Source: Candidatus Poribacteria bacterium
GTDB lineage: Bacteria > Poribacteria > WGA-4E > WGA-3G
DNA length: 64,000 bases
Assembly: GCA_003635315.1 (NCBI GenBank)
Contig: PYJD01000041.1
Location: forward strand, 1-64,000
Direction: 5' to 3'
Position numbers and translations under genes: made by a program. Of the stretch, positions 54,759 through 56,000 are shown one piece after another. The stretch's first letter is position 1. Each line of letters starts with the position of its first letter. The notes beneath the pieces were generated by a model. It made no database searches and was not told the DNA's origin. It was given only the letters and a program-made list of their open reading frames with translations.

Positions 54759-54787
54759 TTGCATATTCACTATACTTTTGCTATAAT
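54759..54787 (+). promoter_or_regulatory. Promoter of the EF-Tu-like gene
   Basis: TTGCAT (54759-54764), 17-base spacer, TATAAT (54782-54787). It lies inside the longer open frame that begins at 54732, which supports the later ATG 54843 as the start. Confidence 0.55.
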
Positions 54788-54842: not shown

Positions 54843-56000
54843 ATGAATAAGAAAAAGACATCCTCTCATCTGTCGCTACCAATTTGTATGCTTGGTGCTG
54901 ATGGACATGGTAAGACTACATTAACAACTGTCATGGAAAGAGTCATAGAGAAAATTGGAACAATACATTCAGATTCCAGTAATGAATTATTTAATCAGTT
55001 GCCAAATCACCACCCGATATGTGAAGGAGTTGGATTTACATATCGGTCTATTGACTATGAAACAAGTGGAAAACACTATACCCAGATTGATTGTGAAACA
55101 CATCAGGATATTGTAAAATTATTGGTCAGTGGTGCCCTGGATATTCAAGGCGCGATATGGGTAGTCGATGCAGATTACGGTGTAACTCAAGAATCTGAAG
55201 AACTCATTCGTATTGCCAATAGTGTTAAAGTGTCCAATATTGTGTCATTCTTAAATATACACAACACCGATGACAATGAGTTGGTCAACATCTGCAAACA
55301 GGAAATGACAGAAATACTCACTGAATGTGGATGGAATGAAAATAACACACCAATATTAGTAGGTGATGCACATAATGCTATAAATTATAAAACCATAAAT
55401 TTAGGATCAGACCAATGGAAACCTATTGTTGATACTATTTCTGCCTTGAATAGTATTATGCCGAATCCAATCAATAAATCAGAACTTCACCTTATGTTCC
55501 CTATTCACAAAATTGTAGAAGAGAATAAAGAGACTGTGACATTTTCTGGGGAATTAATACAAGGACATCTTTCTGTAGGACAGTCCATTGATATTGTTGG
55601 TAAAGGTGATAGGATAAAAACTAAATGTTTAAATATTAAAGACCATGAAATTACAGTTGAATCTGAACCGGACTGGTTATCTGTTGGTCAGGTGGTTTGT
55701 TCTCCTAAGACAATAAAAGCTCATACAGAATTTACTGCAATCGTTTATCTATTAAACCAAGATGAGAGTGGAACCCATATCCCAATTGTTGAAAATGATA
55801 AGCTTGAAATTCATCTATGGGGAATAGATATACATGCACGAGTCCAGCTTCCACCAGGTTTATCAATTATATCTCCAGGTTCAAATTCTGATATTTCTGT
55901 TTCACTTGATCTTCCGCTTGTAATGGAAGTTGGAACAACCTTCGAAATTAAAAAGATGGATATAAGAATCGGTTTAGGTATAGTTACAGAAACTGTATAA
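54843..56000 (+). CDS. EF-Tu-like paralog with degenerate GTPase motifs
   Basis: 385 aa from ATG 54843; EF-Tu is about 395 aa. All three EF-Tu domains align: P-loop G18-A-D-G-H-G-K-T-T-L (Asp21 of EF-Tu is Gly), then H-Y-T-Q-I-D83-C-E-T-H87 where EF-Tu has H-Y-A-H-V-D-C-P-G-H. The domain II stretch V-T-F-S-G-E-L-I-Q-G matches V-V-T-G-R-V-E-R-G, and domain III has G-Q-V-V-C-S-P-K-T-I-K-A-H-T-E-F. However, G3 D-x-P-G is D-C-E-T, G4 N-K-C-D is N138-I-H-N141, and the switch I R-G-I-T-I is E-G-V-G-F. The protein has probably lost normal GTP specificity and acts outside standard elongation. No Shine-Dalgarno is clear. Confidence 0.85.
   Translation: MNKKKTSSHLSLPICMLGADGHGKTTLTTVMERVIEKIGTIHSDSSNELFNQLPNHHPICEGVGFTYRSIDYETSGKHYTQIDCETHQDIVKLLVSGALDIQGAIWVVDADYGVTQESEELIRIANSVKVSNIVSFLNIHNTDDNELVNICKQEMTEILTECGWNENNTPILVGDAHNAINYKTINLGSDQWKPIVDTISALNSIMPNPINKSELHLMFPIHKIVEENKETVTFSGELIQGHLSVGQSIDIVGKGDRIKTKCLNIKDHEITVESEPDWLSVGQVVCSPKTIKAHTEFTAIVYLLNQDESGTHIPIVENDKLEIHLWGIDIHARVQLPPGLSIISPGSNSDISVSLDLPLVMEVGTTFEIKKMDIRIGLGIVTETV

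Follow-up and report, generated by a model that had tools for sequence, protein, structure and literature searches.

The threonine of the RGITI motif and the glycine of the DxPGH motif bind the gamma-phosphate (PMC3037878). Yeast Ski7, a eukaryotic, Hbs1-related paralog of the translational GTPases (trGTPases), has altered catalytic residues and is proposed to be non-hydrolysing, with its Ski7C portion binding GTP in an active conformation (PMC4509514) and its N-terminal region binding the exosome (PMC4933942). In the archaeal aSelBL proteins, which originate from archaeal SelB, decay of the G motifs is graded along the phylogeny, with G2 and G3 changed and the P-loop partly deleted in some members; binding of tRNA and of the ribosome has been inferred to be kept (PMC3037878). 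Among bacteria, Streptomyces EF-Tu3 (actEF-Tu) is a divergent second EF-Tu; the cited work singles out actEF-Tu as the one EF-Tu-like subfamily that can be clearly told apart from EF-Tu, and describes its members as apparently condition-specific translation factors (PMC4342817). On hibernating ribosomes, open EF-Tu(GDP) is held by bL12, h5 and Balon, whose site is formed by tRNA-binding residues of domain III, a description that the cited text makes no more specific (PMC10901736).

The window analysed here, a 64,000-nucleotide stretch of a Candidatus Poribacteria genome (contig PYJD01000041.1), encodes a protein that shares with canonical EF-Tu (TIGR00485) the parent fold, an end-to-end alignment, the P-loop, helix D and three domains, but lacks Thr61, DxxG, NKxD and the tRNA-end loop and is only about 28–30% identical to the EF-Tu of its own genome. 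Like Ski7, it is a trGTPase paralog with altered catalytic residues; unlike the GTP-binding Ski7C, it has lost both Thr61 and DxxG, and its predicted structure appears GDP-like. The graded motif decay recalls aSelBL, but the present protein is bacterial and the tRNA-end loop is gone. It is a divergent second bacterial EF-Tu, as is actEF-Tu, but one that has lost the switch and guanine motifs. Ski7, aSelBL and actEF-Tu are analogues and not the same family. In the open-access PMC literature, outside whose coverage most subscription journals lie, no report of this protein appeared among the records listed.

The gene and its relationship to EF-Tu

The open reading frame (54843–56000, forward strand) begins with an ATG and is intact over 385 amino acids, so that the full frame described by the first-pass annotation is borne out. 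Searches of the PDB aligned EF-Tu over query residues 6/14–383, which is near full length (best E = 1.8e-50), and the best 60 of the 62 matches at E<=0.001 are of EF-Tu type, except for one EF-1alpha. An end-to-end alignment at this E-value shows that the match is not due to chance, in agreement with the annotation of an EF-Tu paralog. Among profiles, the best score was for EF-Tu (195.7 bits, against 37.0 bits for selB), which, together with PDB matches to EF-Tu, does not fit the archaeal SelB descent of aSelBL. The score against TIGR00485 (182.9–188.8 bits) is well under the curated cut-off of 522.4 for canonical EF-Tu. The same genome has one copy of canonical tuf, on contig C2, which scores 717.8 bits to TIGR00485 and lies near a 704-amino acid frame that matches in part and is EF-G-like by size and place.

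Cross-identities with tuf, together with the surface-site and window comparisons given below, were computed for 13 hand-picked representative paralogs. For the protein set exact duplicates were merged, leaving 47 sequences, and L081, a tuf with an in-frame stop, was dropped; alignment A3 was made without L120, L134 and L139, and L047 and L051 occupy separate columns of one motif alignment. Overall cross-identity is 0.30. Domain 2 is the most eroded, at 0.22 versus 0.33 for domains 1 and 3, and in Pfam domains 1 and 3 alone rise above the cut-off. The claim that all three domains are present holds by alignment and by the AlphaFold2 model described below, but not by Pfam detection. The features discussed in the following are listed in Table 1.

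Table 1. Features of the EF-Tu paralog locus (window coordinates; residues in E. coli EF-Tu numbering; counts over 71 genomes unless stated)
Feature	Position	Strand	Evidence or conservation
Promoter: -35 TTGCAT (54759–54764), 17-nt spacer, extended -10 TGC-TATAAT (54779–54787)	54759..54787	+	Conserved in upstream alignment of six loci
Gene of the EF-Tu paralog (pseudo-GTPase), 385 aa and a stop codon	54843..56000	+	ORF, PDB match, profiles, orthologs
G1/P-loop GADGHGKTT, intact Walker A	54894..54920	+	Kept in 70/71
Switch I (G2) EGVGF for RGITI, Thr61 lost	55023..55037	+	Thr61 in 0/71
G3 DCETH for DCPGH; Asp80 and His84 kept, Pro82-Gly83 lost	55089..55103	+	Motif census
G4 NIHN for NKCD/NKAD	55254..55265	+	Strict NKxD in 2/71
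Helix D (142–157)	55272..55319	+	Cross-identity with tuf 0.50; Glu144, Glu152 in 71/71
G5 GDA for GSA	55362..55370	+	Asp173 in 68/71
Domain 2, site of deleted EF-Tu loop 268–281	55656..55667	+	Loop missing from 46/46 order members checked
NDKLEIHLW signature of domain 3, with newly invariant Asp326 and Trp333	55794..55820	+	71/71
KKM signature of domain 3, where EF-Tu has REG (377–379)	55950..55958	+	Lys377, Lys378 in 71/71; Met379 in 69/71

Relatives outside the cellular genomes were also sought. The plasmid and phage records listed (10 of 101 and 10 of 19, respectively) are less than 30% identical to the query, and the annotated ones are labelled EF-Tu. A scan of viral contigs with a paralog-specific pattern matched 25 stretches and yielded no relatives. 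Separately, in EF-Tu-type proteins encoded by viral contigs L118, L119, L124, L125, L127 and L129–L132, the RGITI of switch I is replaced by K-[QT]-V-T-[IV]; Thr61 is present and a stretch such as IAKGG precedes switch I.

GTPase motifs

A motif census was compiled from 72 rows representing 71 genomes; G035 contributes two rows, its ortholog lying in pieces at the ends of two contigs. The first-pass annotation had reported an intact P-loop GKTT alongside broken G3, G4 and switch I motifs; GADGHGKTT is indeed present, and DCETH, NIHN and EGVGF against RGITI were all seen. Such breakage is no oddity of this copy; it is the rule across the ortholog family. Asp80 is found in 71 of 71 sequences, Gly83 in one (DxxG is lost in the other 70) and His84 in 52; Lys89 and Asn135 are each kept in 70, and Ser173 is replaced by Asp in 68. 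G4 takes 22 forms among the 71 sequences (NTGG in 20, NTDG in 8, NTRN in 7, NKAE in 7, and others), and the cross-identity of switch I with tuf is 0.09. His84 is the catalytic histidine of EF-Tu, and its retention in these sequences is evidence that the catalytic residues have not all been lost outright.

The intact G1–G5 set of canonical EF-Tu is not seen in the family, in which G1 is kept in 70 of 71 and Thr61, DxxG and NKxD are lost. Nor does the census agree with membership of the actEF-Tu/EF-Tu3 family, which we take to comprise translation-competent second EF-Tus with intact GTPase motifs. What the family does display are the marks of a pseudo-translational GTPase: descent from a trGTPase, loss of switch and catalytic residues (with His84 still present in 52 of 71) and purifying selection. 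The description of the protein as a pseudo-GTPase derived from EF-Tu stands on these counts (Thr61 in 0, Gly83 in 1 and NKxD in 2 of 71).

Several members are of intermediate character. The ortholog of G042 (L051) has NKID and the domain 2 loop, with Pro at Thr61 and Val-Asp at Pro82-Gly83, and has the domain 3 signature already in place. Remnants of NKxD occur in families f2–f4, and in G029 (L047) the P-loop is lost and the gene is still there. From these sequences we infer an order of losses in which the GTP switch went first and guanine specificity followed on repeated occasions, with a single loss of phosphate binding.

Predicted structure and conserved surfaces

The modelling with AlphaFold that the first-pass annotation had proposed was carried out. 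AlphaFold2, given an alignment of 6 paralogs and 21 EF-Tu-type proteins from viral contigs, returned a model with the EF-Tu fold (pLDDT 90.1, pTM 0.86) in which switch I residues 55–60 and 63–73 are strands; on the 6 sequences alone the model was useless (pLDDT 40.9). The best 50 PDB matches from Foldseek are EF-Tu or complexes containing EF-Tu, with query TM-scores of 0.81–0.90 in 49 and 0.73 in one, in keeping with the three-domain EF-Tu fold. Entries 6mij, 1efc, 1tui and the Balon-bound EF-Tu(GDP) 8rdw gave TM-scores of 0.86–0.88. The titles of these 50 rows name GDP in 9, GTP in 1 and neither in the rest, and GTP-form entries are presumably missing from them, judging by the entry codes. 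The model suggests an open, GDP-like arrangement, a shape that may come from the 21 EF-Tu-type proteins in its alignment.

Helix D, with a cross-identity of 0.499 versus 0.30 overall, is in this comparison among the three best-kept stretches. Sixteen of 377 windows score above it, 13 of them within the P-loop and helix A and the other 3 within stretch 98–115, which is slightly ahead at 0.506. It is kept also in L047, the member without a P-loop. EF-Ts docks on helix D of EF-Tu. The C-terminal domain of bL12 docks there as well, and with the L148A substitution association is reported to be five times slower (PMC5770553); of the 71 paralogs, 67 have Ile and 3 have Met at position 148. Because stretch 98–115 is kept slightly better, helix D may be kept for folding alone.

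The surfaces by which EF-Tu binds tRNA have fared differently. The domain 2 loop corresponding to E. coli 268–281, which in EF-Tu helps to form the pocket that receives the aminoacyl end of tRNA, is present in G042 and absent in all 46 order members checked. Positions 66, 215, 216, 259 and 261, which presumably belong to the same pocket, have no residue in common with tuf in the 13 representatives. With these residue roles, the aminoacyl/CCA-end pocket of domains 1 and 2 is not that of canonical EF-Tu. A tRNA had been among the ligands suggested by the first-pass annotation; canonical tRNA binding appears unlikely because the aminoacyl-end pocket loop is deleted. Stretch 215–234 of domain 2, part of which we assume to contact 16S rRNA, has a cross-identity of only 0.17.

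In domain 3, Trp333, Lys377, Lys378, Asp326 and His319 are invariant in 71 of 71 sequences. Seven sites (318, 319, 329, 338 and 377–379), taken here to be T-stem contacts of EF-Tu, have an identity of 0.70 within the family and 0.08 to tuf, and only 0.3% of random domain 3 sets are as extreme. Judged from these alignments, the domain 3 face that holds the tRNA T-arm in EF-Tu is one that was rebuilt and then frozen.

Distribution, descent and selection

The search for orthologs and the dN/dS comparison with tuf, both proposed at first pass, were run. Of 84 genomes returned for the phylum, 72 are in the same order (families f1–f4), and 70 of these have an ortholog. The two without, G052 and G053, are assemblies of about 590 and 880 contigs that are 86% and 78% complete. 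Outside the order, the only one of 12 genomes with an ortholog is G042 (family f7), or 1 of 10 for the other families of the class; canonical tuf or pieces of tuf were found in 10 of the remaining 11, and in G039 no tuf row was seen, only other matches. None of the ortholog rows listed has an internal stop. A frameshift was considered for G019 and G031, where the match falls in two pieces, and rejected, as each is a single open frame with an insertion.

A tree of 17 paralogs and 21 tufs places the paralogs, including that of G042, on one side of a branch with support of 100/100. The paralog subtree mostly mirrors the tuf subtree (f3, the f4 pair G028/G031, and the f1 clade with its pairs), apart from open forks and from disagreements of weak support at G021 and G003/G009. 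Since the paralog groupings repeat those of tuf, descent looks vertical from one old duplication; with an unresolved root and long branches, the exact origin is unsafe. By the Nei–Gojobori method, as implemented in our own script, dN/dS is 0.062–0.135 for 15 ortholog pairs and 0.017–0.063 for 8 tuf pairs, in both cases hand-picked near relatives. Purifying selection on the paralog, as estimated from these pairs, is strong, though weaker than on EF-Tu.

Some observations concern tuf itself. Short tuf pieces, many at contig ends, occur outside the order in G038, G041, G044, G045, G047 and G048, as expected if two near-identical tuf copies break the assembly. Among the rows listed there is no genome with a paralog and two full canonical tufs, and the pseudo-GTPase may have descended from a second tuf copy. 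The canonical tuf of one metagenome-assembled genome (G048:C394) has one in-frame TAA, probably an assembly error. The assembly of G042 is 79% complete, with no EF-Ts match and no canonical tuf, and carries the paralog on a 4,240-base contig, so its placement is provisional.

Promoter and gene neighbourhood

The first-pass annotation had given the gene its own promoter, and this is supported by a TTGCAT-17-TATAAT site with an extended -10. In family f1, 31 of 33 ortholog upstreams have the block at a common location (-76 to -90), scoring between 19 and 35 out of 35. The exceptions are L052, with the block at -171, and L020, without it. The best windows of 14 sequences outside f1 score 15 to 19, and L058, which has the lowest f1 score (19), is set apart from them by place and shape only. 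A generic consensus scan did not list the site, returning 11 sites versus 8.4 in shuffles.

In several genomes of the same family the neighbours are rfaE2-like and hisA genes, divergent and convergent. Comparison of the ortholog contexts found no neighbour common to the families, and an operon or neighbour clue to function was rejected, as other families have different neighbours. None of the neighbour genes read is a translation gene, judged by eye. At L056 and L065 a tandem array of related long ORFs adjoins the paralog; one of them, L056:7594, looks by eye like a TolB-type propeller repeat.

Discussion

The paralog very probably has a new job, perhaps still at the ribosome. We read it as an EF-Tu-derived bacterial pseudo-GTPase and, tentatively, as one that acts as an adaptor, docking through helix D and carrying a new ligand on domain 3. 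By its sequence it is an old EF-Tu duplicate whose three-domain body is kept, whose GTP switch and later guanine specificity were lost, and whose aminoacyl-end pocket is partly gone. In the predicted open, GDP-like shape it would most likely not be cycling. Helix D of domain 1 would dock on the bL12 stalk and/or EF-Ts, the rebuilt domain 3 face (W333, K377, K378, D326) would hold a new protein or RNA partner at the place of the T-arm, and a nucleotide at the kept P-loop would be structural only, as in the 'pseudo-trGTPase' scenario of the Ski7 paper. Hibernation, quality control and dampening of elongation are candidate processes. For the adaptor we count the lost motifs, the constraint, the lost pocket loop, helix D, the rebuilt T-arm face, the fold and the Balon precedent; against it count the slightly better conservation of 98–115, the change of Leu148 in 70 of 71, the cross-identity of 0.17 in 215–234, the finding of no Balon-type partner and the lack of a neighbour common to the families.

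The same helix D could instead serve a decoy that binds EF-Ts or bL12, competes with EF-Tu and damps elongation with no ligand of its own. The conservation of the helix, the occurrence of EF-Ts in 82 of 84 genomes and the loss of the switch motifs and tRNA-end loop fit such a role, but the frozen domain 3 face (W333, K377 and K378 in 71 of 71) would be left unexplained and, EF-Tu being usually very abundant, high expression would be needed; we think a decoy rather unlikely. We are also doubtful of a moonlighting scaffold outside translation, in which the EF-Tu body would be a frame for a cytoskeletal, metabolic or membrane partner. Most translation surfaces have changed (switch I at 0.09, the tRNA-end pocket, domain 2) and the neighbours read by eye are not translation genes, yet one of the best-kept stretches is helix D, the surface on which translation partners of EF-Tu dock.

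Two further readings, one with a nucleotide and one with a tRNA as ligand, both seem improbable. As a sensor of a nucleotide other than GTP, the protein would use the P-loop and Asp80 that it has kept, next to a base pocket that has changed; this agrees with the retention of Walker A (70 of 71), Asp80 (71 of 71) and Asn135 (70 of 71) beside the loss of NKxD and Thr61, and with the newly fixed Asp173 (68 of 71), but 22 forms of G4 in 71 sequences are unlike a specific new base site, and G029 still has the gene with no P-loop. A specialised carrier, for instance of an odd or deacylated tRNA, working outside the EF-Tu GTP cycle as proposed for aSelBL, would account for Lys89 (70 of 71) and for the new basic Lys377-Lys378 on the T-arm side; the aminoacyl-end pocket loop is, however, deleted in 46 of 46 order members, in contrast to aSelBL, which is inferred to keep aminoacyl-tRNA and ribosome binding (PMC3037878). 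A decaying tuf copy has next to no probability. The loss of G2, G3 and G4 is what a pseudogene might show, but dN/dS is far from neutral (0.062–0.135 in the 15 chosen pairs), orthologs persist in 70 of 72 genomes, no stops occur among the rows listed and the promoter is conserved in the family. This agrees with the first-pass view that the gene is not a decaying pseudogene, and the frame error that had been named as a possible refutation fails on the same ortholog rows. That the paralog answers the loss of a rescue or exchange factor was likewise rejected: of 84 genomes, 77 have SmpB and 82 have EF-Ts, and the paralog shows no association with either.

For the adaptor, the Balon system offers a working model, as open EF-Tu is there held on bL12 with a protein on the tRNA face of domain III, and the adaptor is by this analogy physically plausible (PMC10901736). 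Unlike that system, which uses ordinary EF-Tu, the present one yielded no Balon-type protein with the three models tried (baeRF_family2 in 0 of 1 genome, baeRF_family10 in 0 of 84 and eRF1_3 in 0 of 13). None of these families turned up in the genomes searched, which makes a ligand other than a Balon-type protein probable. Of the options offered by the first-pass annotation, a regulator or another ligand fits best as the putative ligand. A narrower version of the adaptor, in which a nucleotide-locked 'EF-Tu(GDP)' would deliver its ligand to ribosomes, in the service of hibernation or quality control, by way of helix D and the T-arm face, strikes us as unlikely.

A copy of one of life's most conserved proteins has here lost its switch, yet is kept in 70 of 72 genomes of an order. 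The intermediates (G042 with NKID and the loop, the NKxD remnants of f2–f4, and G029 without a P-loop) make up a natural series of EF-Tu losses, and a partner still to be discovered is indicated by the frozen face of domain 3. If the narrower, nucleotide-locked adaptor reading is true, bacteria would have in the paralog their own counterpart of Hbs1/eRF3/Ski7, one that arose from EF-Tu.
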